From Demequina sp. NBRC 110056 (GTDB lineage Bacteria > Actinomycetota > Actinomycetes > Actinomycetales > Demequinaceae): 64,000 nucleotides of DNA. Positions 45,791 to 60,758 of this stretch are shown in pieces (the first letter of the stretch is position 1; the number at the start of each line of letters is the position of its first letter). Both the position numbers and the translations under genes were made by a program. Below the pieces are notes generated by a model, which was given only the letters and a program-made list of their open reading frames with translations, did no database searches and was not told the origin of the DNA. Where the stretch lies: NCBI RefSeq assembly GCF_002090155.1, contig NZ_BBRM01000004.1:310001-374000 (forward strand). The letters run 5' to 3'.

Positions 45791-45851
45791 CGAAAGTGGA
45801 CCCACTCTCATCGCGAAGCGGGTCCTCACGAGGAAGGTGGGCACACTTTCG
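45791..45851. repeat. Paired palindromes, locus C
   Basis: CGAAAGTGGACCCACTCTC (from 45791) and GAAGGTGGGCACACTTTCG (45833-45851) are near-palindromes with centres about 40 bases apart. The pattern matches the loci at 33331 and 34571. It lies just upstream of the dnaK control region. Confidence 0.65.
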
Positions 45852-45866
45852 CCAAACGGGGGCGGG

Positions 45867-45887
45867 GTTGAGCGTCATTCACTCAAC
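45867..45887. promoter_or_regulatory. HAIR element 1 (HspR operator)
   Basis: GTTGAGC-N7-ACTCAAC fits the HspR-associated inverted repeat CTTGAGT-N7-ACTCAAG. It lies upstream of the dnaK -35. Confidence 0.85.
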
Positions 45888-45902
45888 TTTCACTCGCTCG
45901 AC

Positions 45903-45930
45903 TTGACATCACGAGCCACGCGAGGATACT
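45903..45930 (+). promoter_or_regulatory. dnaK operon promoter
   Basis: TTGACA (45903-45908) and GATACT (45925-45930) with a 16-base spacer. The -10 overlaps the second HAIR element, so HspR binding should block it. Confidence 0.75.
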
Positions 45931-45949
45931 TGAGCGTAGGCGGCTCAAC
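45929..45949. promoter_or_regulatory. HAIR element 2 (HspR operator)
   Basis: CTTGAGC-N7-GCTCAAC overlaps the -10 and start region of the dnaK promoter. Two HAIR elements 62 bases apart bracket the promoter. Confidence 0.85.
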
Positions 45950-46004
45950 TTCGGAGCCGGCAGTTTCCGCGGCTCGACAAGCCGCATCAGAAGGAGGACA
46001 CCTC

Positions 46005-47873
<1,869 letters not shown>

Positions 47874-47880
47874 CGCAGCC

Positions 47881-47916
47881 GCGGCGGCGGGCGGGCATGG
47901 CCCGTCCCGCCGCCGC
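47881..47916 (+). other. RNA hairpin between dnaK and grpE
   Basis: A near-perfect GC stem (GCGGCGGCGGG-CGGGC with GCCCGTCCCGCCGCCGC, one bulge) starts 8 bases after the dnaK stop. It may partly terminate transcription or protect the dnaK mRNA end, giving more DnaK than the other chaperones. Confidence 0.55.
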
Positions 47917-47939
47917 GCTCCGCATACGGAAGGCTCACC

Positions 47940-48518
47940 ATGACCGACCAGAACCCGAACCCCGAGCCGCAGGACGGCGACGACCCCCTCGCCGACGCTG
48001 AGCGCATCGTGAACGAGGCCGCCGCAGGACTGGGCGACGCCGCGACCGATGGCGTGAACGCCGACGAGCAGGGCGCCGACGACGCGCTCAACGCGGCGTA
48101 CGCGACGGCCGCCGAGCACCTCGCGGACCTGCAGCGCCTGCAGGCCGAGTACGTCAACTACCGCAAGCGCGTGGATCGCGACCGCGAGGCTGCCGGAGAC
48201 CTGGCCGTCGGCAAGGTCATCGAGACCCTGCTGCCGGTGCTCGACGACATCGCCGGCGCGCGCGAGCACGGCGACCTCGAGGCCGACGGCCCCTTCAAGT
48301 CGATCACCACCAAGCTCGAGGACGCCCTCGGCCGGCTGGGCTGGTCGAGCTTCGGGGCTGCGGGCGAGCAGTTCGACCCGCAGGTGCACGAGGCGCTGAT
48401 GTCGCAGCCCTCGACAGAGGTCACCGAGCCCACGATCCAGCACGTCGCCCAGCCGGGCCACCGCATCGGCGAGCGTGTGATCCGCCCCGCGCGCGTGATC
48501 GTCGCGCAGCCCGAGTAG
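47940..48518 (+). CDS. grpE: GrpE nucleotide-exchange factor
   Basis: A 192-residue GrpE. An acidic disordered N-terminus precedes the long coiled coil (LADLQRLQAEYVNYRKRVDRD) and the C-terminal beta domain (FDPQVHEALMSQPS, GHRIGERVIRPARVIVAQPE). It releases ADP from DnaK. GGAAGG lies before the ATG. Confidence 0.95.
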   Translation: MTDQNPNPEPQDGDDPLADAERIVNEAAAGLGDAATDGVNADEQGADDALNAAYATAAEHLADLQRLQAEYVNYRKRVDRDREAAGDLAVGKVIETLLPVLDDIAGAREHGDLEADGPFKSITTKLEDALGRLGWSSFGAAGEQFDPQVHEALMSQPSTEVTEPTIQHVAQPGHRIGERVIRPARVIVAQPE

Positions 48519-48555
48519 CCACCACCCCACCGACACCGCCGAGAGGAGACGCACC

Positions 48556-49527
48556 ATGACGAGCCAGGACTGGTTCAGCAAGGACTTCTACGCCACGCTG
48601 GGCGTCTCCAAGGACGCGAGCGCGGAGGACATCAAGAAGGCCTACCGCAAGCTCGCGCGCGACCTCCACCCGGACCGCAACCCCGGCGACAAGGCCTCCG
48701 AGTCCCGCTTCAAGGAGGTGGGCGAGGCGTACGGCGTGCTGTCCGACAAGGAGCAGCGCCAGCAGTACGACGCGATCCGCACCATGGGCGGCGGCGGCCC
48801 GCGCTTCCAGGCGGGAGGGCCCGGCGGCGCCGGCTTCGAGGACGTGTTCTCGAACATGTTCGGCGGAGCGGCACGACCGGGTGCGGGCCAGGCGGGAGCC
48901 GGTCAGCAGTACCGGGCGCAAGGCTTCGAGGACATGCTGGGCAACCTCTTCGGAGGTGGCGGCTTCCAGCGCGGCCCCCAGAAGGGCACGGACATCGCAG
49001 CAGCCACCGAGGTGAGCTTCCGCCAGGCCGCGGCGGGCGACACCATCACGCTGCGCACCGCGACCGGCGACGTGACGACCCGGCTGCCCGTCGGCGTCAA
49101 GGACGGCCAGAAGATCCGCATCCGCGGCAAGGGCCGCGCGGGCGCCAACGGCGGACCGGCGGGCGACCTGCTCCTCACGGTGCGCGTCGCGGCGCATCCG
49201 GTGTTCTCGACGGACGGACGCAACCTGCTGGTGAAGCTGCCCGTGAGCTTCGACGAGGCGGCGCTCGGCGCCACGGTCGAGGTCCCGACGCTGGACGGCG
49301 AGCGCGTCCGCGTCAAGATCCCGGAGGGCACCCCGTCGGGCAAGGTCCTGCGCGTCAAGGGCCGCGGCCTCGCGACCAAGGATGGGCCGGGCGACCTGCT
49401 GGTCACCATCACGGTCAACGTGCCGTCCAAGCTCGCGCGCAAGGCCAAGGAGGCGCTGCAGGCCTTCGCCCTGCACACCGCCAAGGACGACCCGCGCAAG
49501 GACTTCTACAAGGACGCGGCCCGGTAG
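48556..49527 (+). CDS. dnaJ: DnaJ-type co-chaperone without zinc finger
   Basis: A 323-residue J-protein. The J domain has the HPD motif at 38-40 (ARDLHPDRNPGD), followed by a Gly/Phe-rich segment (about 80-150) and the two C-terminal substrate-binding domains (about 155-310). The CxxCxGxG zinc-finger repeats of a classic DnaJ are absent, so it is a CbpA/type II-like protein at the usual dnaJ position. It stimulates DnaK ATP hydrolysis. Confidence 0.9.
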   Translation: MTSQDWFSKDFYATLGVSKDASAEDIKKAYRKLARDLHPDRNPGDKASESRFKEVGEAYGVLSDKEQRQQYDAIRTMGGGGPRFQAGGPGGAGFEDVFSNMFGGAARPGAGQAGAGQQYRAQGFEDMLGNLFGGGGFQRGPQKGTDIAAATEVSFRQAAAGDTITLRTATGDVTTRLPVGVKDGQKIRIRGKGRAGANGGPAGDLLLTVRVAAHPVFSTDGRNLLVKLPVSFDEAALGATVEVPTLDGERVRVKIPEGTPSGKVLRVKGRGLATKDGPGDLLVTITVNVPSKLARKAKEALQAFALHTAKDDPRKDFYKDAAR

Positions 49528-49582
49528 AGCCGATGCGGTGGCCGCCGGGGCTACGGTGACCACCAAGGGAAGGAGGACGGTC

Positions 49583-50011
49583 GTGGAGCAGCCAGACGTC
49601 GACGAGCCCGTCTTCCTCATCTCCGCCGCGGCCGAGCTCGCTGGGATGCACGCCCAGACCCTGCGCCAGTACGACCGGCTCGGCCTGGTCGTCCCGCGCC
49701 GCCGCCCCGGCGGCGGGCGGCGCTACTCGCTGCGCGACGTCGCGACGCTGCGCGAGATCCAGCGCATGAGCCAGGACGAGGGCATCAACCTCGCGGGCAT
49801 CGCCCGGATCCTCACGCTCCAGAAGCAGGTGGACCGCCTGCAGGACGAGGTGCGCAAGCTCCGCCCCCGCGCCGACACCGGCTCACGCGTCTTCACGTCC
49901 GGCCCCTCGGGCTCGGTCGTGATCGTCGAGCGCGGCCGCCGCGTCAGCCGTGACGAGGGCCGGGCCCTGGTGCTGTGGAGCGCACGACGCGAGAGCCCCG
50001 CCGAGGACTGA
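49583..50011 (+). CDS. hspR: HspR, MerR-family heat-shock repressor
   Basis: A 142-residue MerR-type repressor. The winged helix-turn-helix begins VFLISAAAELAGMHAQTLRQ with YDRLGLVVPRR and RRYSLRDVATLREI; a coiled coil follows (LTLQKQVDRLQDEVRKL), and the C-terminus contains a hydrophobic end. It binds HAIR elements together with DnaK and so represses its own operon until DnaK is titrated by unfolded proteins. The GTG at 49583 follows AAGGAGG. Confidence 0.95.
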   Translation: MEQPDVDEPVFLISAAAELAGMHAQTLRQYDRLGLVVPRRRPGGGRRYSLRDVATLREIQRMSQDEGINLAGIARILTLQKQVDRLQDEVRKLRPRADTGSRVFTSGPSGSVVIVERGRRVSRDEGRALVLWSARRESPAED

Positions 50012-50060
50012 CCGGCGCGGCCGCACCCTCCCCGCCAGCGCACCGGCGCTGCTCAGAACC

Positions 50061-50089
50061 TTGACGGCCCGACGCCACCAAGCCAGCAT
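50061..50089 (+). promoter_or_regulatory. Leaderless promoter with -35 for the VOC gene
   Basis: TTGACG (50061-50066) and CAGCAT (50084-50089) have a 17-base spacer, and the hexamer ends 6 bases before the ATG at 50096. Confidence 0.55.
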
Positions 50090-50095
50090 GGCCCC

Positions 50096-50464
50096 ATGGC
50101 CGATGCGGACAGCCCCCACGCGCACCACGCACCCGACTACATCGAGATCCCCGCGCTCGACGCGGAGGCGGCGACGAGGTTCTACGGCGACGCCTTCGGG
50201 TGGCGCTTCACGTCCTACGGCCCGGCGTACCACGGGATCGTCGCGGGCGACGGCCGCGAGGTCGGCGGGATCTCGGAGGTGGGCGAGGTGACGCGCGGCG
50301 ACCTGCTCGTGGTGCTGTTCTCCCGCGACCTCCAGTCGAGCCGCGACAGCGTCGTGAAGGCGGGCGGCACGATCACGCGCGACATCTTCGACTTCCCTGG
50401 TGGGCGACGCTTCCACTTCGCCGACCCCTCGGGCAACGAGCTCGCCGTCTGGGCCTTCGCCTAG
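50096..50464 (+). CDS. VOC superfamily (glyoxalase-like) protein
   Basis: A 122-residue single-module vicinal oxygen chelate protein: PDYIEIPALDAEAATRFYGD and FGWRFTSYGPAYHGIV, then a second beta-alpha-beta unit and the RFHFADPSGNELAVW ending. Two metal-ligand positions (the early Glu and the late Glu) are in place. Small members act as lyases, isomerases or bleomycin-type resistance proteins; the substrate is open. Confidence 0.82.
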   Translation: MADADSPHAHHAPDYIEIPALDAEAATRFYGDAFGWRFTSYGPAYHGIVAGDGREVGGISEVGEVTRGDLLVVLFSRDLQSSRDSVVKAGGTITRDIFDFPGGRRFHFADPSGNELAVWAFA

Positions 50465-50553: not shown

Positions 50554-51324
50554 CTATCGCTGCAACGACTCCACAAGGTCGCTCGCGAAAGCATGTGTGG
50601 TGGGCAGCGACTCGATCCACACGCGCGGAGGCTGGCGCATGAGGTTGCCACCCTTCATCGCCTGCGCGCGGTCGGAGATGTGGTCGCGCAGAGACGCGAT
50701 GCCCTGCCCCAGGGACGCGCCGCGCTCAACGAGCACGGCGTAGAGACCATCGCCCATGCGGGCCATCGGGTGGCCCACGCCGTAGGCGCCACGCAGGGCC
50801 TCACCGGCGGCGGCGTTGCGCGCGATGCGCTGCCACGGGTCCGTCGCCTCGACGGACACGTCGACCATGACGAGGGCGTGCGTGGAGGTGACCTCGACGC
50901 CGCCGCGGCTGGCCATCCCGTACACCTCCGCGAGGCGCTGCACCAGGTACTCCGGCGTTCCCAGACCCGACTCCGCGTCGGTCATCGTGGGCGCCTCGAG
51001 GATGGGCTCGGACCCCGCGGTCCACCCCTCGCACAGCGCACGGATGGAACGGATGGGCGCCGACTCGAAGCCGGCGGCCTTGAACAGCACAGCCATGTCG
51101 TCGATCGCCTCGGTGATGCCGACGCCGGCGCCCGAGCGCGCCTGGCCCAGGCGGTAGGCGGCTGGCGCCGTGTCGAGGCGAGCGTCGAGGGCCTCCGCGA
51201 GGGCCTCAGCCGCCGGTGTGTACCAGTCGCCAGGACGCAGCCAGACCGTGTCGATGCTCGCGCTCTCCCATCGCTGGAGGAGCGCGGCCGACCCGTTCCC
51301 GGGGACCTGCGTGTGGCTGCTCAT
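50554..51324 (-). CDS. Protein with degenerate GGDEF-like domain
   Basis: A 256-residue soluble protein of no family that I recognise with certainty. The C-terminal half has the spacing of a diguanylate cyclase fold: STHALVMVDVSVEATDPWQR, GAYGVGHPMARMGDGLYAVL at the GGDEF loop position, and a helix DHISDRAQAM. The signature loop reads MGDGLY instead of GGDEF, so cyclase activity is not expected. An AGSGAG-type loop occurs near residue 65. It is divergent from the fused sigma factor gene 172 bases away, suggesting a functional link. Confidence 0.45.
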   Translation of the reverse strand: MSSHTQVPGNGSAALLQRWESASIDTVWLRPGDWYTPAAEALAEALDARLDTAPAAYRLGQARSGAGVGITEAIDDMAVLFKAAGFESAPIRSIRALCEGWTAGSEPILEAPTMTDAESGLGTPEYLVQRLAEVYGMASRGGVEVTSTHALVMVDVSVEATDPWQRIARNAAAGEALRGAYGVGHPMARMGDGLYAVLVERGASLGQGIASLRDHISDRAQAMKGGNLMRQPPRVWIESLPTTHAFASDLVESLQR

Positions 51325-51390
51325 GACAGATGAGACGGCCGCGGTCCGCGACTATGACGCCGTTATCCGGGAAAATCTGCCGCGCAGGCG

Positions 51391-51405
51391 CACACTCGGA
51401 GTGTG
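51391..51405. promoter_or_regulatory. Candidate operator: 15-base palindrome
   Basis: CACACTCGGAGTGTG is a perfect palindrome with a single central base, between the divergent genes starting at 51324 and 51498. Confidence 0.45.
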
Positions 51406-51443
51406 ACCAATTCCCCAGGTCGCTCTCTTTCGCCCGGGCCTCG

Positions 51444-51471
51444 CACCAGGAAAGATGGAGGAACCCTGGTG
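51444..51471 (+). other. Inverted repeat in the leader of the fused sigma gene
   Basis: CACCAGG and CCTGGTG form a 7-base stem with a 14-base loop, just before the GGAGGAGGAG ribosome-binding site (51481-51490). It could affect translation. Confidence 0.3.
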
Positions 51472-51497
51472 GCGAGCGCGGGAGGAGGAGTGTGCCC

Positions 51498-54400
51498 ATG
51501 AGCTCGGAGGCGATCGCGCTGTGGACGGAGACGTCCAGCGATCCTGAGCTCATCGCCGGCGTGCGTGCCGGTGATGCGGCCGCCTTTGGCGTGCTCTACG
51601 AGCGCCACGTGGGCGCCGCCCGCAAGGTCGCCGCCCAGTACACGAACTCCGCGAGCGACGTCGACGACGTCGTGTCCGAGTCGTTCTCGCGCGTCCTGCG
51701 CGCCCTGCAGCGCGGCGACGGCCCCGACCTCGCCTTCCGCGCGTACCTCTTCACGATCGTCCGCCGCACCGGCATGGACGTCATCGACAAGGGCATCCGC
51801 ACCAAGCCGCGCGAGGACATGTCGCCCTACGAGTCGTCGATCGGCTACGAGGCTGCCTCCGACGAGCCCGCGCTCGACGGGTTCGAGCACGGCATGGTCG
51901 CCGATGCGTTCAAGTCGCTTCCCGAGCGGTGGCAGGCCGTCCTCTGGTACACCGAGGTCGAGAAGAAGTCCGCGAAGGAGATCGCCCCTCTGCTTGGCCT
52001 CACCGCCAACGGCGTCGCGGCCCTGTCGTACCGCGCGCGCGAGGCCCTGCGCCAGGCCTACCTGCAGCAGCACCTCAACACCTCCGAGGAGATCGGCTGC
52101 CTCGAGGCCAACGCCCAGCTGGGCGCCTACGTCCGCGGCGGGCTGTCCAAGCGCGAGCACGGCAAGGTCGACGACCACGTCAGGACCTGCGAACGCTGCA
52201 CCGCGCTCGTCGCCGAGCTCGAGGACGTCAACCGCGGCATGCGCGGCATCATCGCGCCCCTGTTCATGGGGCTGCTCGGCGTCGGCGCCCTCGAGGGCGG
52301 CCTGCCCATCGGCGGTGCGCTCGGTCCGCAGGGCGCCGCGTCCAGCGCGGGGGCAGGCGCGGGCGGTGCAGGCACGAGCGGGACGGCGCTCGGCGCTGGC
52401 GCGGCCGGTGTCGCCGCCGGCGCAGGCGCCGCCGGCATCGCGGGGGCGCTCGGCGCTCTCGCCAACGTCGCCATGCCCGCCGCCGCAGTCGTCGGAGTGG
52501 TCGCCCTCGCCATCAACGGCGCGAGCGCGCTGGGACTGTTCGAGTCGGACGAGCCCGTCGACGGCGTCGCCGGCCCGGTGGTCGTGAGCCCGTCGCCTTC
52601 TCCCGACGCGTCCGACGCAGACGACGACGCCACCGAGCCGACCCCTTCCCCCGTGCCGTCCGTCTCGCCCTCGGCGAGCGTCGACGAGGAGGACGACGCG
52701 GTCGCCGATGCATCCGACGACCCGTCCGACGAGCCCGCCGAGGCTCGTCCCCGCACCGTGATCTACGGGCTGGGCAGCACTGGCGCCGGTTCCGGTTCCA
52801 GTGGCGCGGGCTCCTCTGGTGCGGGCTCGGGCTCCGGTGGCGGCTCCGGCGACGGTGCTGGTTCCGGAGGGGACTCGGGCACTGGTGCAGGCGCCGGGAC
52901 GGGTGCGGGCAACGGGTCCGGCTCGGGCTCCGGTGACGGATCGGGCGCGGGCGCAGGTTCCGGCTCTGGCTCGGGGAATGGCTCAGGCGACGGGACGGGA
53001 TCGGGCGACGGTTCGGGCTCCGGCGATGGCACGGGTTCCGGCGATGGGTCTGGCTCGGGCTCTGGTGACGGTTCGGGTTCGGGTGACGGTTCCGGTGACG
53101 GAAGCGGCGACGGGTCGGGCTCCGGCGATGGCACAGGCTCCGGTGATGGATCCGGTGACGGCGATGGGTCCGGCTCGGGCGACGGCTCTGGCTCTGGCGA
53201 CGGCGAGGGCGACGACAGCGGTTCCGGTTCTCCCGGCGGCACCGTGCTGCTGTCGATCGGCGCAGCCCCGCTGAACGTCCTCGAGATCTCCCGCTCGACG
53301 CCGCTCGTGGGCATGAGCATCTCGAACGATGGCGACGGCGACGCCGCCGACGTGAGCGCGACCATCACGCTGCCGGACGGATTGACGTTCGCACCGCCGT
53401 CCTCGGGCGCAGGTGCCTTCGCGATCCCCGAGGCGCAGTCGCTCGGCATGCTCCTCGCAGCATCGACCGACGCGACCTTCGACGCCGGCGACTGGACCTG
53501 CTCGCTCAGCGGTGAGTCGAACGTCGCATCGTGCACGCTCGAGGCCCTCGTGGGCGGCCATGGCGCCGATCTCGAGCTCTCCGTCGCGCTGCCCGACGGC
53601 GACCTCGCGGCGGACGCCACGACCACCTTCGCGGTGAGCGCCGGCGACGTCTCGGCGTTCTACTCCGTGCGTACCGCGATCGCCGCCGGCGACGACGACC
53701 TCGACCCGGTCGTGACCGAGGGCGGCGGGCTCGGCGTCGTGCAGTTCGGAGCACCGGTGCTCGGCTGCGACATCAGCGAGAAGGGCTGCGTGGAGGCGCG
53801 CCAGTCGCTGTTCACCACCGGCACGGGCCAGTACAAGTCGGACAACAACGACTACACCATGGTGGCGCTCAAGGACGCCGGGGGCGAGCGCCTGTCGGGT
53901 GTGACGACGGTCGAGATCCCCGAGGGCGCGACCGTCAAGCGTGCATCGCTCGAGTGGTCCGCGAACCGGGCGCTCGGTCGCTCGGGCCAAGGCGGCGCCG
54001 ACGTATGGGAGGGCAAGGTGCGCGAGGCGCGTCTGCAGATCCCGGGCGGCTCCTACGAGGATGTGGTCGCAGACGTCAGCGACCTCGTGACTAAGGACAA
54101 CCGTCAGTACTACGTGTCGCGGACGGACATCACGGAGCAGGTGAAGTCCGCGGGCTCGGGCGCCTACTCGCTTGCCGACATCGCCGTCAGCGAGTCTCGC
54201 AAGGACAACGACCGCACGTACTACGGCGGCTTCACGCTGACGATCATCTACGAGGACCCCGAGCTCGACGAGAGCTCGCGCGTCGTCCTGTTCGAGGGCG
54301 CCCACTGGGTCTCCTCCGACGCGCCGGTGGTCAAGCGCGTCGAGCTGCTCAAGCGCTCCGACGTCGGCCTGTCGTGGACCGCGTACGAGACCGATCGCTC

Positions 54401-54653
54401 GCTCTCCGGCGACACCGTCGACCTCGACGGCGACCTGTTCACGCCGCAGCGCCAGCGCGGCAACGGCGCCTCCGAGAACGCGGGAGACGCGCACGCGTTC
54501 GGGTCGCTCTACGCGAACACCATGGGCATCGACGCGAAGCCGTTCGTCGCCAAGAGCTCGCGCCAGGAGGGCAGCCACGTCCTGACGGCGAAGACCTCAG
54601 GCGACAACTTCCTCATCGGAACCATCGCGGTGACGATCTCCGACACGCAGTAG
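51498..54653 (+). CDS. Membrane-tethered ECF sigma factor fused to anti-sigma and surface domains
   Basis: A 1051-residue single chain. Residues 10-190 are an ECF sigma factor (region 2 [19 protein letters not shown]; region 4 [20 protein letters not shown]). Residues 195-245 hold a zinc-finger anti-sigma motif: C201-x25-H227-x3-C231-x2-C234. A Gly/Ala-rich stretch and a membrane helix follow (about 323-348). Outside are an acidic Pro/Ser segment, about 150 residues of Gly-Ser-Asp repeats (about 426-579), a DUF11/CARDB-like domain (about 582-740) and a C-terminal domain of about 300 residues. The ATG is 7 bases after GGAGGAGGAG. The architecture resembles actinobacterial ECF groups with C-terminal sensory extensions (ECF52/53 type). 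It should link a surface signal directly to transcription. Confidence 0.85.
52774..53236 (+). repeat. Gly-Ser-Asp coding repeats
   Basis: Short tandem units encoding GSGDGS and variants ([12 protein letters not shown]) run for about 150 codons. Units are mostly 12-18 bases with synonymous changes, so they are old or under codon-level drift, and copy number may vary between strains. Confidence 0.85.
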
Positions 54654-54658
54654 CGCGG

Positions 54659-55261
54659 TCAGCGCGCGGGCTCGGCGCTCCAGTCCATGTCGAGCTGGCG
54701 CGCAGTGCGGTGAGCCATCTCCTCCCCCGCGACGCGAGCGACCACGTGCAGAGCCATGTGCATGCCCGACGTGAGGCCACCGCTGGTGATCACCGCACCC
54801 GCATCGGCCCATCGCACGCCGTTGACGGCGCCCGTGACGCCTGACGCACGCAGGGCATCGACGTCCTCCCAGTGGGTGGTCGCGGGAAGGCCATCGAGCA
54901 GACCGCCCTGCGCGAGGAGGAACGCGCCCGTGCACACGGACGTGGTGAGCGAGGCGCCGCCCACGAGGTGCGCCACGGCGCTCTCGATCGCGGGATCCGC
55001 CAGCGCGGCCTCGACGTCGATCGTGCCGGGCACCACGACCACGTCGAACGGGGTGGCCGCCTGCGCATCGGCAAGCGCGGTGAGCGTCATCCCCCCAAAG
55101 GCCACCACGTCCGCACCCCCGGGGCTCACGAGCTCCACGGTGAAGGACGGCGCCTCGCCATCGCGCTCAGCGAGTCGCGACGCCGTGAGGAAGACCTCGT
55201 ATGGCCCCCCTGCGTCGATGAGGTCGAAGCCGTCGAAGACCAGGATGCCGATGCGCGTCAT
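54659..55261 (-). CDS. DJ-1/PfpI family protein
   Basis: A 200-residue class I glutamine-amidotransferase-like protein. The nucleophile elbow is TTSVCTGAFLLAQ with C110, an acidic residue occurs in the N-terminal DAGGPYEVF, and the later TTHWEDVDAL and GVRWADAG match the isonitrile hydratase/AraC-associated branch. There is no helix-turn-helix, so it is not a regulator. It may be a hydratase or glyoxalase-like stress enzyme. Start supported by TAGCCT 6 bases upstream. Confidence 0.82.
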   Translation of the reverse strand: MTRIGILVFDGFDLIDAGGPYEVFLTASRLAERDGEAPSFTVELVSPGGADVVAFGGMTLTALADAQAATPFDVVVVPGTIDVEAALADPAIESAVAHLVGGASLTTSVCTGAFLLAQGGLLDGLPATTHWEDVDALRASGVTGAVNGVRWADAGAVITSGGLTSGMHMALHVVARVAGEEMAHRTARQLDMDWSAEPAR

Positions 55262-55267
55262 GGCGCC

Positions 55268-55273
55268 AGGCTA
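55268..55273 (-). promoter_or_regulatory. -10 hexamer of a leaderless promoter
   Basis: TAGCCT on the reverse strand ends 6 bases before the ATG at 55261. It lies inside the stop region of the exporter gene. Confidence 0.5.
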
Positions 55274-56545
55274 GGCCACGACCTCGTTCGAGGCCCGGCG
55301 GCGCACGACGAGCCACAGCGACGCGTTGGCGATCGCGAGCGAGCCGATCATCACTACCGCCATCGACGTCACGGACATGCCGCCCGCGCCGATCAGCGGG
55401 GTAGCCAGGCCGGCCACGCCCATGTTGAGCGCACCGATGAGCGACGCGGCGGTGCCGGCCTCTCCGGCGTGCCCGGCGAGCGCCGTCACTTGCACGGTGG
55501 GCATGATCAGGCCGACCGGCGCCACGACGAAGAACAGCGAGATGAGCACCGGCACCACGCCCGTGTCGAGCAGTCCGCAGGTCAGCAGCGCGAGCGCACC
55601 GCCGGCCTGGATGCTGAGTCCCGCTGTGGTCACGGCGCGCGGAGGCAGCACGCGCATGAGGCGCGCGGACACCTGGTTGCCGATGACGAGTCCGACCGAG
55701 TTGATGCCGAAGACCAGGCCGTACTGCTGCGGGCTGAGGCCGAACAGATCCTGCAGGATGAAGGACGAGGCGGACAGGTACGCGAACAGTGCGGTGAAGG
55801 ACATGGCGCCGACGACGGCGATGCCGACGAACGCGGTGTCGCGGAAGAGGTGGCGGTAGCGGCGTGCGACCGTCGAGACCTCGAAGCGACCGCGGCGCGA
55901 GGCAGGCATGGTCTCCACCATGAGGAACGCGGCGACCACGATCATCACGAGCCCGTAGGCGGCGAGCACCGCGAAGATCCCGCGCCACTCCATCACGGAC
56001 AGCAGCTGCGACCCGATCACGGGCGCGACCACGGGCGCGAGGCCCGTCACGAGCGCCATGCGAGCGAGCATCCGGATGAGCTGCTGGCCGCCGAAGAGGT
56101 CGCGCACCATCGCCATCGCGACCACGCCCGCGCCCGCGGCGCCGATGCCCTGGAGGACTCGGCCCGCCATGACGAGCTCAACCGTCGGCGCGAACACCAC
56201 GGCGATGCTCGCGCCGATGTGCACCGCGGTGGCGATGAGCAGCGGCTTGCGGCGTCCGAGGGCGTCCGAGAGCGGGCCCACGATGAGCTGACCCAGGGCG
56301 AAGCCCACCATGGTCGCGGTCAGCGTGAGCTGGATCGCGGCGTCGCTGACGCTGAGGTCGGCGGCGACATCCGGGAACGCCGGGAGGTAGAGGTCCACCG
56401 TGAAGGGTCCGAGCGCGACGAGGGCGCCGAGCACGAGGATGTACTTCAGCTTGTCGCGGCGGCTCAGGGTACGGCCGTATGCCTGTGCGACGGTCGCGTC
56501 GGGCGCGGTGGTGCTGGACGCACGGGCGTGAAGATCGGAAGACAC
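55271..56545 (-). CDS. MFS drug exporter, Bcr/CflA type
   Basis: A 424-residue, twelve-helix major facilitator. Motif A is GPLSDALGRRKPLL between helices 2 and 3, and the first helix carries FTVDLYLPAFPDVA typical of Bcr/CflA (bicyclomycin/chloramphenicol/sulfonamide) proton antiporters. Motif C-like AVVAPVIGSQLL is in helix 5. The GTG at 56545 (VSSDL...) gives a normal N-terminus; an upstream start would add an unrelated 53 residues. A promoter with an overlapping inverted repeat lies about 100 bases upstream, suggesting local repression. Confidence 0.85.
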   Translation of the reverse strand: MSSDLHARASSTTAPDATVAQAYGRTLSRRDKLKYILVLGALVALGPFTVDLYLPAFPDVAADLSVSDAAIQLTLTATMVGFALGQLIVGPLSDALGRRKPLLIATAVHIGASIAVVFAPTVELVMAGRVLQGIGAAGAGVVAMAMVRDLFGGQQLIRMLARMALVTGLAPVVAPVIGSQLLSVMEWRGIFAVLAAYGLVMIVVAAFLMVETMPASRRGRFEVSTVARRYRHLFRDTAFVGIAVVGAMSFTALFAYLSASSFILQDLFGLSPQQYGLVFGINSVGLVIGNQVSARLMRVLPPRAVTTAGLSIQAGGALALLTCGLLDTGVVPVLISLFFVVAPVGLIMPTVQVTALAGHAGEAGTAASLIGALNMGVAGLATPLIGAGGMSVTSMAVVMIGSLAIANASLWLVVRRRASNEVVA

Positions 56546-56644
56546 AGGGGTGCACTCTCTGGACGTAGGGGTGGCGGCGCCAGGAACAGGAACGGCCGCG
56601 CTACCTGGGAGTGCGTCGGCGGAACCTGTCAACGCCGACAGAAC

Positions 56645-56674
56645 GATGGTATTCCCGACCATCTGGTAAGTAAA
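56645..56674 (-). promoter_or_regulatory. Promoter/operator of the MFS exporter
   Basis: On the reverse strand TTTACT (56669-56674) and TACCAT (56646-56651) are 17 bases apart. The inverted repeat GATGGT-N7-ACCATC (56645-56663) covers the -10 and spacer, a typical repressor position. ACCATCTGGT is a further near-palindrome within it. Confidence 0.45.
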
Positions 56675-56703
56675 GCCCGATCCGGGTCGGATTGGACACA
56701 GCA

Positions 56704-56741
56704 CCAGGGGCTCCGCGGCGAGATCGCCGCGGAGCCCCTGG
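56704..56741 (-). terminator. Terminator of the nrdA-nrdB operon
   Basis: An 18-base perfect stem (CCAGGGGCTCCGCGGCGA with its complement) with a very short loop lies 16 bases after the small-subunit stop. Confidence 0.8.
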
Positions 56742-56756
56742 GGGTGGGCTCTCGCC

Positions 56757-57743
56757 CTACTTCTTGGTGGCCTGCGCGTTGACCTCGTACGAGGTGTTGG
56801 TCGCCTCGAAGAAGTTCACGAGCTGCAGGGTGTCGTTGGCGGTCGCCATCCACTTGGCCGGGTTCGACACGTTGTAGTGCGCGTCGAAGCCGAGCTCCTC
56901 GAGACGACGGTCCGCGAGGTAGCGCACGTACTGGTTCACGTAGTCGGCGTTCAGCCCGAGGATGCCCTTGGGGAGCAGGTCGCGGTTGTACGCCTCCTCC
57001 ATGTCCACGGCGTCGAGGATCATCTGACGGATCTCGTCGGCGAAGTCGGGGTCCTGCAGGTCCTCGTTCTCCTCGAGGACGGTGAGGATGAGGTTGATCC
57101 CGAACTGCAGGTGCAGCGACTCGTCGCGGATCACCCAGTCCATGAGCGAGCCGAAGTTGCGCAGCAGGTTGCGCTGGCGGAAGCTGAGCGCGACCATGAA
57201 GCCCGAGTAGAACCAGATGCCCTCGAGGATGATGTTGTAGGCCACGAGGTTGCGGACGAAGTCCTTCTTGCCCTCGGTGGTCGAGATGTCGAGGGTCTCC
57301 TCGGTCATCCGCTTGATGAACTTGACCTCGAAGGCCTCCTTGGCGGCCATCGACGGCACCGTCACGTGCGACTCGTACGCCTCGTCGCGGTCCAGCGGGA
57401 ACGTCTCGAGGACGTACTCGAAGGACATGCAGTGGTTGGCCTCCTCCCACATCTGCTTCGCGAGGTACAGGTGGCACTCGGGAGCGTTGATGTAGGGGTA
57501 GACGCCGAACGCGAGCGCCTTGTTCACGAGCAGCTCGTTGGGGTTGAAGTACGACATCAGGAACGTGACGGCGTGCTTCTCCTCGTCCGTCATCTTCTTG
57601 AAGTCCGCGAGGTCCTCACCCAGCTGGATCTCGTTGGGGAACCACGTGTTCGCCACGGCCTGGTTGTAGAGGTCGTACGCCCACGGGTACGTGATGGGCT
57701 TGAGCAGGAGACCGTCCTGGATGCCGGTTCCGAGAATTGCCAT
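56757..57743 (-). CDS. nrdB: Ribonucleotide reductase small subunit, R2c (Mn/Fe) type
   Basis: A 328-residue class I R2 protein. The metal ligands are E70, E101, H104, E174, E208 and H211, and the spacing between them is the same as in Chlamydia trachomatis R2. The radical-tyrosine position is F108 (EEANHCMSF), and the first ligand is Glu instead of Asp. Both changes mark subclass Ic, which uses a Mn(IV)/Fe(III) centre in place of a tyrosyl radical. It makes the radical for NrdA and ends with an interaction tail. It lies 30 bases after nrdA. Calling it Mn/Fe is inference from residues. Confidence 0.9.
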   Translation of the reverse strand: MAILGTGIQDGLLLKPITYPWAYDLYNQAVANTWFPNEIQLGEDLADFKKMTDEEKHAVTFLMSYFNPNELLVNKALAFGVYPYINAPECHLYLAKQMWEEANHCMSFEYVLETFPLDRDEAYESHVTVPSMAAKEAFEVKFIKRMTEETLDISTTEGKKDFVRNLVAYNIILEGIWFYSGFMVALSFRQRNLLRNFGSLMDWVIRDESLHLQFGINLILTVLEENEDLQDPDFADEIRQMILDAVDMEEAYNRDLLPKGILGLNADYVNQYVRYLADRRLEELGFDAHYNVSNPAKWMATANDTLQLVNFFEATNTSYEVNAQATKK

Positions 57744-57773
57744 GATTGCTTGATTCCTATCCTGGTGTGCCTG

Positions 57774-60758
57774 CTACTGGCAGGACTCGCACTGGAGACG
57801 CTCCATCGGGTCCACGGGGCAGGCGACACCGTCGACCAGCTCCGTGTCGCCGTCGGGCGACGAGAACGTGCTCTCCACCACATCTAGCACCGTCGACCCC
57901 TGGGGCGCGACCGCTGCGGCGGTCTCGATGGACCCCGTCGCGGCGGGCTGCTCGGTGGGCTCGGGCAGGGCGGCCGGCGGCACGTCCGGCTTGACCTCGG
58001 GAGCGGTGGCGAACGCCTGGGCGGCCACGCCGCTGAGGACCGACGCCGGTGCCGTCGCGATGGCGCCGGTCGTGGCCGGGGCCTCCGAGGCGGGAGCCTC
58101 GGTGGCGGGTGCGGCGGCCTTGGACGCTGCGGCGCCGAAGCCCTTCTTGGCGGGTGCCGACGCGGTCTCGACGACGGCCTCGGCCTCGACTGCCGCGACC
58201 GACTCCACGACCTCGGCGGTCTCGACCGCCGCCGTGGCGGTGGTCGCCTTGGCCGCACCGAAGCCCTTGCGGGCGCCGAAGCCACGGCGCGAGGGGCCTC
58301 CAGCCGAGCCGCCGGACGCACCGGACGACGCCTTGTTGAGCTTCTCCGTCTTGTTGACGCGCACCGTGGACTGCTCCGCGGTGTGGCGCGGCTTCATGTG
58401 GAGGTAGTACGTGGTCTTCACGCCGCGCTTCCACGCCGCGGAGTACAGGTCCATCATGTTCTCCACGTCGCGGTCGGCGAGGTAGATGTTGCGGCTGATG
58501 GCCTGGTCGATCCACTTCTGGGCGCGAGCGGCGACCTCGATGAACGCGTACGGCGACAGCTGGAACGACGTCTTGTACACGTCCTGCAGGTGCTGCGGCA
58601 CGTCCTCGATCTGCGACAGGTCGCCCTGCACCTCGAGGAGGCGGTCCTTGAGGTCCTCCCACAGGCCCAGCTCCTGGAGGTCGCGGACCAGGTTGCGGTT
58701 GACCTCGAGGAACTTGCCCGACGAGGTGGCACGGGAGAAGATCTGCGAGAACTGCGGGTCGAAGCCGGGCGTCGTGCCGGCCACGAGACCGATCGAGGCG
58801 GTGGGCGCCACGGCCATCAGGGTCGCGTTGCGGATGCCGCCCGCGACCTTCTCGCGCAGGGTGTCCCAGTCCTGACGGGTGGTGCGGTTGACCTCGACGG
58901 GCACGCCGCGGTCGGCCTCGGTCTCGGCGATGGTGTCGAACGGCACCTTGCCCTGCGACCAGCCGGAGCCCTCGAAGTTGGTGTAGGCGCCGCGCTCACG
59001 GGCGAGGTCGGCCGACGCGTCGATCGCGTGGAAGGAGACGAACTCCATGACCTCGTCGATCAGGTCGTACGCCTCCTCCGACTCGTAGGCGAGGCCCAGA
59101 CGCTCGGTGAGGTCGGTGAAGCCCATGACGCCGAGGCCGATGGCACGGTTCTCGGAGTTGGAGTGCTCCGACTCGGGCACCGAGGACAGCGTGATGTCGA
59201 TGAGGTTGTCGAGCTGGCGCACCGCGAGACGCGTGGACTTCTCCATGCGCTCCCAGTCGATCTTGCCGTCGACGAGGTGCTCCGAGAGGTTCACCGAGGC
59301 CAGGTTGCAGACCGAGATGTTCTCGCGGTCCTGCGGCAGGCAGATCTCGGTGCACAGGTTCGACAGGTGGATGGTGCCGGTGTTGGTGTTGAGGGCACGG
59401 TTGTTGATCGTGTCCTTCCACGTCAGCCAGGGGTGCGACGTGGTCTGCAGCATCACCAGGATCGACTTGTACTGCTCGCGGGCGCGCATCTTCTTGAAGG
59501 TGCGCATGCGCCCGGTCTCGGCGAGCGCCACGTACTCGGCGTAGCGCGCGGAGAAGGCGGAGCCGGTGAGCTCGACGAGGTCGGGGGTCTCGGCCGGGTC
59601 GAACAGGTACCAGTCCTGGTCGTTCTCGACACGCTTCATGAACTCGTCCGAGATCCACACCGCGGTGTTGGCGGTGCGGGTGCGGCGGTAGGGGTCACCG
59701 GAGTTCTGGCGCAGGTCGAGGAACTGCGCGAAGTCCATGTGCCAGTTCTCCATGTAGAAGCACAGGGCGCCGAACTTCTTGCCACCGCGGGACACGGCGC
59801 GCAGCGTCGAGTCGATGGTGTGCATGAACGGGATGGGGCCGGTCGAGGTCGTGTTGTTCGACTTGATGGGCGAGCCCTCGGAGCGCAGCTTGGTCACGGA
59901 CAGGCCGATGCCGCCGGTGCCCTTGGTGAGCCACATGACGTCGCGCACGCTCTTGGCGATGTGCTCGATGTCGTCCTCCATCTGCATCACGAAGCAGTTG
60001 GACAGCTGCGGGTACGAGGTTCCCGCGTTGACGAGGGTGGAGCCGGCGGGCAGGTAGTCGAGGCGCGAGATCTTCTCGTAGAACTGGATCGCCATCTCGG
60101 TGGGGTTGGCCTCGTTGAGCGCCAGGCCCATCGACACGCGCATCCAGAAGTACTGGGGAACCTCGAGCGCCTTGCCGTGACGGTCCGTGATCATGTAGCG
60201 GTTGCGCATCGTGACCGTGCCGATGTACTTCAGCAGGTCGTCGCGCTCGTGGTCGAGGGCGGCGGCGAGAGCGTCGAGGTCGAACAGCGACTCGAGGCGG
60301 CTGTCGAGCAGGCCCTCCTCGACGGCGTCGCGGACGTAGCCCGGGAAGCGCGCCTGGTGCAGCAGCGCGAGCTCGAGGTTGGACTCGTAGCCGCCGAGGA
60401 CGCGCTTGTAGATCACCTTGCGCAGCAGACGAGCCGCGACGGTGTCGAAGTTGGGGTCTTCCTTGACGTTCTGGACCGCGACGCCGATGGCCGCCTCGTC
60501 CAGCTGCTCGGTGGTGATCCCGTCGAACAGGGTGATCGCGAGCTCGGTCGCGATCTGCGTCGTGATGGAGATCTGGTCGGGCAGGCCCTCGGCCGCGCGC
60601 TCGATCGCCTTGTTGATGCGGTCCGCGTTGTACGGCTCGTGGGTGCCGTCACGCTTGGTGACGTGGATGCCCGTGCGGGACGGGTTGGCCTCTGCGACAG
60701 CCTCCGCGACAGCGGCTCCGTTGACGCTGTCCTGTGCGGTGTTCTCCGTGATCGTCAC
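57774..60758 (-). CDS. nrdA: Ribonucleotide reductase large subunit with extended C-terminal linker
   Basis: A 994-residue class I NrdA that reduces ribonucleoside diphosphates. It opens with an ATP-cone (about 30-120, HVTKRDGTHEPYN) for allosteric control. The active site has C255 (QLSNCFVMQM), N467-C469-E471 (LSNLCTEICLP) and C484 (SVCNLASVNL), with the radical-transfer pair Y784/Y785 (TTYYLHMKPR). The chain ends in C990-x2-C993, the thioredoxin-exchanging pair. Between about 806 and 975 there is a long Ala/Pro/Val-rich linker with repeated GFGA-K units. Two NrdR-box-like sites precede the gene. Confidence 0.95.
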   Translation of the reverse strand: MTITENTAQDSVNGAAVAEAVAEANPSRTGIHVTKRDGTHEPYNADRINKAIERAAEGLPDQISITTQIATELAITLFDGITTEQLDEAAIGVAVQNVKEDPNFDTVAARLLRKVIYKRVLGGYESNLELALLHQARFPGYVRDAVEEGLLDSRLESLFDLDALAAALDHERDDLLKYIGTVTMRNRYMITDRHGKALEVPQYFWMRVSMGLALNEANPTEMAIQFYEKISRLDYLPAGSTLVNAGTSYPQLSNCFVMQMEDDIEHIAKSVRDVMWLTKGTGGIGLSVTKLRSEGSPIKSNNTTSTGPIPFMHTIDSTLRAVSRGGKKFGALCFYMENWHMDFAQFLDLRQNSGDPYRRTRTANTAVWISDEFMKRVENDQDWYLFDPAETPDLVELTGSAFSARYAEYVALAETGRMRTFKKMRAREQYKSILVMLQTTSHPWLTWKDTINNRALNTNTGTIHLSNLCTEICLPQDRENISVCNLASVNLSEHLVDGKIDWERMEKSTRLAVRQLDNLIDITLSSVPESEHSNSENRAIGLGVMGFTDLTERLGLAYESEEAYDLIDEVMEFVSFHAIDASADLARERGAYTNFEGSGWSQGKVPFDTIAETEADRGVPVEVNRTTRQDWDTLREKVAGGIRNATLMAVAPTASIGLVAGTTPGFDPQFSQIFSRATSSGKFLEVNRNLVRDLQELGLWEDLKDRLLEVQGDLSQIEDVPQHLQDVYKTSFQLSPYAFIEVAARAQKWIDQAISRNIYLADRDVENMMDLYSAAWKRGVKTTYYLHMKPRHTAEQSTVRVNKTEKLNKASSGASGGSAGGPSRRGFGARKGFGAAKATTATAAVETAEVVESVAAVEAEAVVETASAPAKKGFGAAASKAAAPATEAPASEAPATTGAIATAPASVLSGVAAQAFATAPEVKPDVPPAALPEPTEQPAATGSIETAAAVAPQGSTVLDVVESTFSSPDGDTELVDGVACPVDPMERLQCESCQ

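Follow-up and report, generated by a model that had tools for sequence, protein, structure and literature searches.

Within the window, the 64,000-nucleotide stretch of Demequina DNA that was analysed, a single open frame encodes a one-chain transmembrane ECF sigma factor, and a conserved partner gene lies head-to-head with it behind a conserved two-box motif, GCGTCATR-N16-STCTCA. The architecture and conservation of the protein, the pairing of the two genes, the motif and the genes that lie behind it were all directly observed. We consider it rather probable that the protein is a membrane-held sigma switch, which carries its anti-sigma domain in cis, as well as a surface sensor, and which acts on promoters with this motif, including that of the partner gene and those of a wider regulon. 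The original prediction had recognized the sigma protein but had missed the partner gene and the promoter adjacent to it.

Domain order, conservation and probable topology of the sigma protein

The sigma gene and the features encoded in it are the following.

51498..54653, + strand: one-chain transmembrane ECF sigma factor gene (single open frame, 1051 aa plus stop)
51594..51779, + strand: sigma region 2, residues 33-94 (Pfam; fold)
51897..52049, + strand: sigma region 4, residues 134-184 (Pfam; fold)
52098..52199, + strand: zinc-finger anti-sigma domain, residues 201-234 (C201, H227, C231 and C234 invariant)
52233..52295, + strand: conserved hydrophobic helix, residues 246-266, running on from the zinc-finger helix (alignment, model)
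52320..52457, + strand: Gly/Ala-rich low-confidence linker, about residues 275-320 (alignment, model)
52458..52529, + strand: membrane helix, about residues 321-344 (hydrophobicity, model)
52773..53231, + strand: Gly/Ser/Asp stalk, 153 residues, 426-578 (composition)
53235..53717, + strand: DUF11-like domain with conserved C668 and C679 (weak Pfam match)
53724..54650, + strand: C-terminal DUF3344-like domain, 309 residues, 743-1051, with conserved C757 and C764 (alignment, profile, Pfam on relatives)

Sigma regions 2 and 4, the zf-HC2 domain and the membrane helix were all present in one frame. The order along the chain was sigma regions 2 and 4, zinc finger, Gly/Ala linker, membrane helix, stalk, DUF11-like domain and C-terminal domain, and the frame, Pfam, the sigma fold and conservation bore out the domain order that had been noted from the sequence. 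Foldseek matches identified the sigma fold in the N-terminal model. The VIA check of this model was a second look at the same Foldseek matches and was barely informative beyond residue 195, and the placement of the domains relative to one another in the structure model was weak (pTM 0.34).

Relatives of the sigma gene were found in 44 of 44 Demequina genomes searched. In 39 of the 44 a single frame spanned both ends, which rules out a frameshift or two separate genes joined by artefact. Among the other genomes, G652, G659 and G667 had a break inside the sigma gene, due to sequencing error or decay, and in G664 and G666 the gene was split over contigs. Two of the broken genes have named copies, those of Demequina litorisediminis (G652, locus L345) and Demequina sediminis (G659, locus L340).

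When residues 1-270 served as the query, 2344 of the 8000 candidates scored reached E 0.001 or better; Demequina, Cellulomonas, Actinotalea, Oerskovia, Cellulosimicrobium and Isoptericola are among the genera named in the 120 matches listed. As the outer domains are of kinds common to secreted surface proteins, we considered whether the protein is mainly a surface adhesin with a vestigial sigma part. This is so improbable that we give it almost no weight: the invariant columns in the 14- and 45-sequence alignments are mostly sigma and zinc-finger residues, residues 1-270 are 80-89% identical across the named Demequina proteins among the matches listed, and the partner gene and motif are conserved alongside.

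Concerning topology, four of the seven cysteines (668, 679, 757 and 764) lie in the ectodomain, and these were invariant in 14 of 14 sequences. An N-inside/C-outside orientation is supported indirectly, by the conservation of these outer cysteines and by the occurrence elsewhere of the same C-terminal domain behind starts that, by eye, resemble signal peptides. A second hydrophobic stretch, near residues 251-269, is hydrophobic in 14 of 14 sequences, with P254 and G258 invariant in 45 of 45, and would formally allow a second membrane crossing. It is nevertheless very unlikely that both stretches cross the membrane and leave the C-terminal domain in the cytoplasm. In the model the first stretch continues the zinc-finger helix, the conserved cysteine pairs are confined to the outer part, an acidic stretch follows the second helix, and the same C-terminal domain is found in exported proteins.

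With the N-inside/C-outside orientation, the sigma factor and zinc finger would be cytoplasmic, the helix at about residues 321-344 would cross the membrane, and the two outer domains, DUF11-like and DUF3344-like, would be borne on the Gly/Ser/Asp stalk into the cell wall or through it. The protein's own zinc finger would keep the membrane-held sigma factor silent. When the outer domains are engaged or stressed, cleavage or rearrangement at the membrane or linker may then free the sigma part. Between the hydrophobic helix and the membrane helix, the linker varied from 40 to 206 residues in 45 aligned rows and was Gly/Ala-rich where read. Gly/Ala-rich stretches can stop processive proteases, and the linker might in this way shield a sigma fragment once released.

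For ECF52 proteins, proteolytic release has already been proposed (PMC5826349, PMC8999054). Activation could instead proceed without proteolysis: binding of a ligand outside the cell would move the membrane helix together with the zinc finger, and the sigma factor, though still tethered, could then bind polymerase. We regard this as a real if minority possibility. Conformational changes are named as an alternative in PMC5826349, and with the anti-sigma domain in cis, cutting the membrane helix alone would leave the anti-sigma domain attached. On the other hand, Pro327, Gly333, Gly341 and Gly346 of the membrane helix were at least 90% conserved in the 14-sequence alignment (only G346 in the 45-sequence alignment) and would suit intramembrane cleavage. 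There is also a precedent in IutY (ECF243) of Pseudomonas putida, likewise a fused sigma factor and membrane anti-sigma factor, which according to PMC8999054 is cut and freed by Prc and RseP. IutY differs from the window protein in that it acts in iron-siderophore signalling and is not an actinobacterial protein with such an outer part.

Outer domains and their apparent exchange

The DUF11-like domain of the window protein scored 13.6 bits for DUF11 (PF01345), below the cut-off of 24.6, and a relative, L110, scored 25.1 bits. A Pfam search with the window's own C-terminal domain gave no match, DUF3344 (PF11824) included, and a sequence comparison of this domain with the PDB gave one row, whose E value of 0.59 is meaningless. 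A standalone frame of 402 residues that carries the domain (L014) scored 29.1 for DUF3344, above the cut-off of 27.2, and two of the nine sigma-linked profile members also matched DUF3344 (best 1.3e-4). Taken together, these matches identify the C-terminal domain as a divergent DUF3344, a domain that is extracytoplasmic elsewhere. DUF3344 also appears in the precomputed domain list of P0093, a sigma relative.

The profile of the C-terminal domain was found in 63 of 394 genomes of the class and in 65 of 297 genomes of the order. After two weak rows were dropped, the class sample held 66 places with the domain. It lay downstream of one of the listed sigma-ZAS matches on the same strand at 27 of these and did not at 39, some of the latter perhaps being cut by contig ends. 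At L009, L011 and L015, the domain stood near the N-terminus of a DUF11-repeat protein, behind what looked by eye like a signal peptide; the DUF11 score of L011 was just below the cut-off.

Ten related sigma proteins from other families or genera in the class sample were also inspected. Pfam recognized an outer domain in seven of them and none in three. The seven were NPCBM, DUF642, F5/8C, fn3, Ig plus ricin-type lectin, ricin-type lectin and DUF11, four of which we take to be sugar-binding types. This variety among related sigma proteins makes the outer domain look like an exchangeable sensor. On a quick tree of 53 rows, the C-terminal domain underwent five changes of state, at least three by the starred branches. 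It had been suggested from the sequence that the long stalk and an unfamiliar C-terminal domain were unusual for a receptor. Neither point was supported: the C-terminal domain is a divergent relative of DUF3344 that is present in other exported-looking proteins, and outer domains vary within this sigma family.

The partner gene, its predicted promoter and the predicted regulon

Upstream of the sigma gene, the following features were found.

50554..51324, - strand: partner gene ('DIV') for a GGDEF-like protein of 256 aa that lacks the GGDEF signature; head-to-head with the sigma gene
51331..51360, - strand: predicted ECF promoter of the partner gene, GCGTCATA-N16-GTCTCA, ending 6 nt before the partner ATG
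51361..51382, - strand: A/T-richer element upstream of the promoter, GAAA-type in many related loci and degenerate here
51400..51408, + strand: AGTGTGACC block between the promoter and the sigma gene, conserved among Demequina

The genes that flank the pair lie at 45837-50464 and 54659-60758 of the window. One side has dnaK-grpE-dnaJ together with a MerR-type gene and a glyoxalase-like gene, the other DJ-1/PfpI, MFS and ribonucleotide reductase genes. Five other Demequina loci keep most of this flanking gene order.

The partner protein alone gave no match against Pfam. Its C-terminal half resembled GGDEF weakly, with GGDEF_2 at 7e-4 in one of seven members, and the best rows against solved structures, a GGDEF protein (E 0.015) and FimX (0.064), were likewise weak. 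None of the seven aligned partner rows carried the GGDEF active-site signature at what we presume to be the corresponding place in the alignment; they read GDGLY, GGGVF and the like.

Partner matches numbered 60 in the 394 class genomes. A sigma-ZAS gene adjoined 56 of them, in 39 cases head-to-head and in 17 cases in tandem; the other four were unpaired, three of these being partial matches in frames of 839-994 aa. The 17 tandem partners were placed directly upstream of the sigma gene and were weak matches (4.8e-12 to 2.7e-7). Among the named loci with enough upstream DNA, taken from the best 80 of 555 loci, the partner was head-to-head in 77 of 79.

In upstream alignments, nearly every Demequina locus had GCGTCAT ahead of the partner. 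GCGTCAYR was present within 420 nt in 64 of the 77 named loci with a partner, again from the best 80 of 555. Outside the genus, all 20 head-to-head loci had the box directed at the partner, and 4 of the 23 sigma loci that have no partner contained it; the shuffled expectations were 1.0 and 0.8, and Fisher's test, with relatedness left uncorrected, gave 1.7e-8. The box likewise preceded the partner in three of four tandem loci, the exception being L090, a locus whose partner match is weak and which begins inside the partner. Most loci had a second box 16 nt after the first, with the sequence STCTCA or a variant (GTGATTA or GTCCTCA, for example). As the promoter ends 6 nt before the partner ATG, the message is likely to be leaderless.

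The exact motif occurred at 118 sites in 42 of 44 Demequina genomes, and a reversed-pattern control gave 0. Thirty-eight of these sites were at the partner, where six genomes lacked the exact motif. No site among the 118 was assigned to the sigma gene, and within the window no exact motif faced it. Further blocks common to Demequina, namely AGTGTGACC, CTTGC and GGGAACATAGGG, occur at 51400-51480 of the window and resemble an operator or a promoter belonging to the sigma gene itself. The AGTGTGACC block had been considered as a sigma target and was set aside; it was seen in Demequina, other genera being compared by eye only. GAAA-N-GCGTCAT had also been tried as a -35/-10 pair and was dropped once the second box appeared at a fixed 16 nt. 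The GAAA pattern gave 51 sites against 6 controls in the 44 genomes and none in the window's genome, and we thus read its GAAA part as an upstream A/T-rich element.

The remaining 80 genus sites preceded bldC (20), genes for LRV-repeat proteins (25; 17 + 7 + 1), a NIT-HAMP-HATPase kinase (15), TasA-like exported proteins (7), Tat-type exported proteins (5) and others (8, one a PilT gene). The domain names were taken from single examples, BldC being identified by NCBIfam (1e-29), the kinase, LRV, EAL and PilT proteins by Pfam, and 'TasA-like' and 'Tat-type' by eye. In the window's genome, three exact sites preceded the genes for the partner and for two exported proteins. Four sites with one mismatch preceded bldC, the genes for two LRV proteins and a small frame of unknown identity; the kinase gene was preceded by a site with two mismatches. 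With up to two mismatches this genome gave 62 sites against 25 controls, indicating that many of them are due to chance.

Outside the genus, 31 genomes with both sigma gene and partner (including G627, where the partner is presumed) contained 43 sites against 3 controls, and 8 of the 43 were the partner site itself. Fourteen sigma-only genomes gave 4 sites against 2 controls, 20 genomes without a close sigma match gave 7 against 2, and G510, of the same family, gave 2 against 0, the outer domain not being found there. The association of motif and sigma gene is thus weaker outside Demequina. In Cellulomonas-type genomes, sites lay in front of EAL-like proteins (Pfam for one, L270). At three other Cellulomonas-type loci (L273, L274 and L275), a site is followed by a gene for a small LuxR-type regulator and then a Nudix-like gene, as judged by eye. 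In family f35, two sites about 3.4 kb apart (L268, 779 and 4187; L269, 687 and 4099) stand before the genes for a protein of 193 aa and an ATPase-like protein of 556 aa, and G228 and G279 show the same spacing of two motif sites.

We infer that the sigma factor reads the motif because the motif keeps its place before the partner in two gene arrangements. Alternatively, the motif may belong to another sigma factor or an activator, with the partner adjoining the sigma gene for some other reason. In favour of this, sites were present in some of the 20 genomes without a close sigma match and in G510, and the first box was also found in four of the sigma loci without a partner. We nevertheless think this alternative unlikely, since the motif faces the partner in both arrangements, the first box was absent from 19 of the 23 partnerless sigma loci, and two conserved boxes 16 nt apart resemble an ECF promoter.

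If the sigma factor does read the motif, the freed sigma part would direct RNA polymerase to GCGTCATR-N16-STCTCA promoters, as their position and co-occurrence suggest. The divergent partner gene would be the first target, its GGDEF-like product probably serving as an adapter or feedback factor. Further targets in Demequina would be bldC, the NIT-HAMP-HATPase kinase, LRV-repeat proteins and small exported proteins, which would make up a cell-surface and differentiation programme. A search of a library that lacks most subscription papers, the ECF re-classification among them, turned up no paper on the partner gene, the motif or the regulon, as judged from titles and the beginnings of abstracts. 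Within that scope, the conserved partner gene beside the sigma gene, the promoter in front of it and the predicted regulon (partner, bldC, kinase, LRV-repeat and small exported proteins) all appear to be new, on the evidence of sequence comparison.

Known systems and meaning

The one-chain design of sigma factor, anti-sigma domain, membrane helix and outer domain is already known from SCO4117 (ECF52) and from groups ECF48, ECF52 and ECF53, and as a statement about the kind of protein, the comparison with ECF52/53-type proteins in the original prediction was sound. ECF52/53-type sigma factors have attracted notice for years. According to PMC5826349, SCO4117 of Streptomyces coelicolor likewise combines an ECF sigma factor, zf-HC2, a membrane region, a disordered stretch and an outer domain on one chain, and is linked to differentiation genes. 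The same paper leaves its promoter and post-translational control unsettled, and PMC8999054 calls it the best understood of the ECF52/53-type sigma factors. ECF48 and ECF53 proteins, compared here by their description in PMC8999054, are predicted to contain one or two membrane helices in addition to a zinc finger fused to the sigma factor, and proteolysis has been proposed for them.

SCO4117 has an NPCBM outer domain (smart00776) and a Pro-rich stretch, whereas the window protein has the Gly/Ser/Asp stalk and gave no Pfam match to NPCBM up to E 1. NPCBM is present in L073, from whose architecture we took family f27 to be Streptomyces-type and to stand in for SCO4117. The eight f27 loci formed a separate branch, with no partner match and no GCGTCAYR pointing away from the sigma gene. 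On the 53-row quick tree, the Demequina proteins belonged to a branch of 32 rows, drawn open and with a support of 93, that is separate from the SCO4117-like branch with NPCBM; this tree therefore gives no support for filing them as ECF52.

Two further systems resemble parts of this one. In SigI/RsgI of Clostridium thermocellum, a sigma factor is controlled by a membrane anti-sigma factor with outer polysaccharide-binding domains; unlike the one-chain protein, this system consists of two proteins and belongs to another sigma family. In WhiG-RsiG, which was among the sigma-fold rows for the N-terminal model, a developmental sigma factor is tied to cyclic-di-GMP through binding of the ligand to the anti-sigma factor. 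Here, the GGDEF-like protein is instead a neighbour and predicted target.

A broader reading, to which we give about an even chance, is that these proteins form an actinobacterial family of single-protein transmembrane sigma switches with plug-in outer sensors that lineages swap, an unusual promoter, a regulon for surface and differentiation functions that includes bldC, and a dedicated, catalytically dead GGDEF-type partner as leaderless first target. The promoter, the predicted regulon and the conserved partner would make the mechanism testable in a system conserved throughout the genus. The general model that it offers is one cytoplasmic switch with many interchangeable outer sensors, and the link to bldC would tie a surface sensor directly to a developmental regulator.
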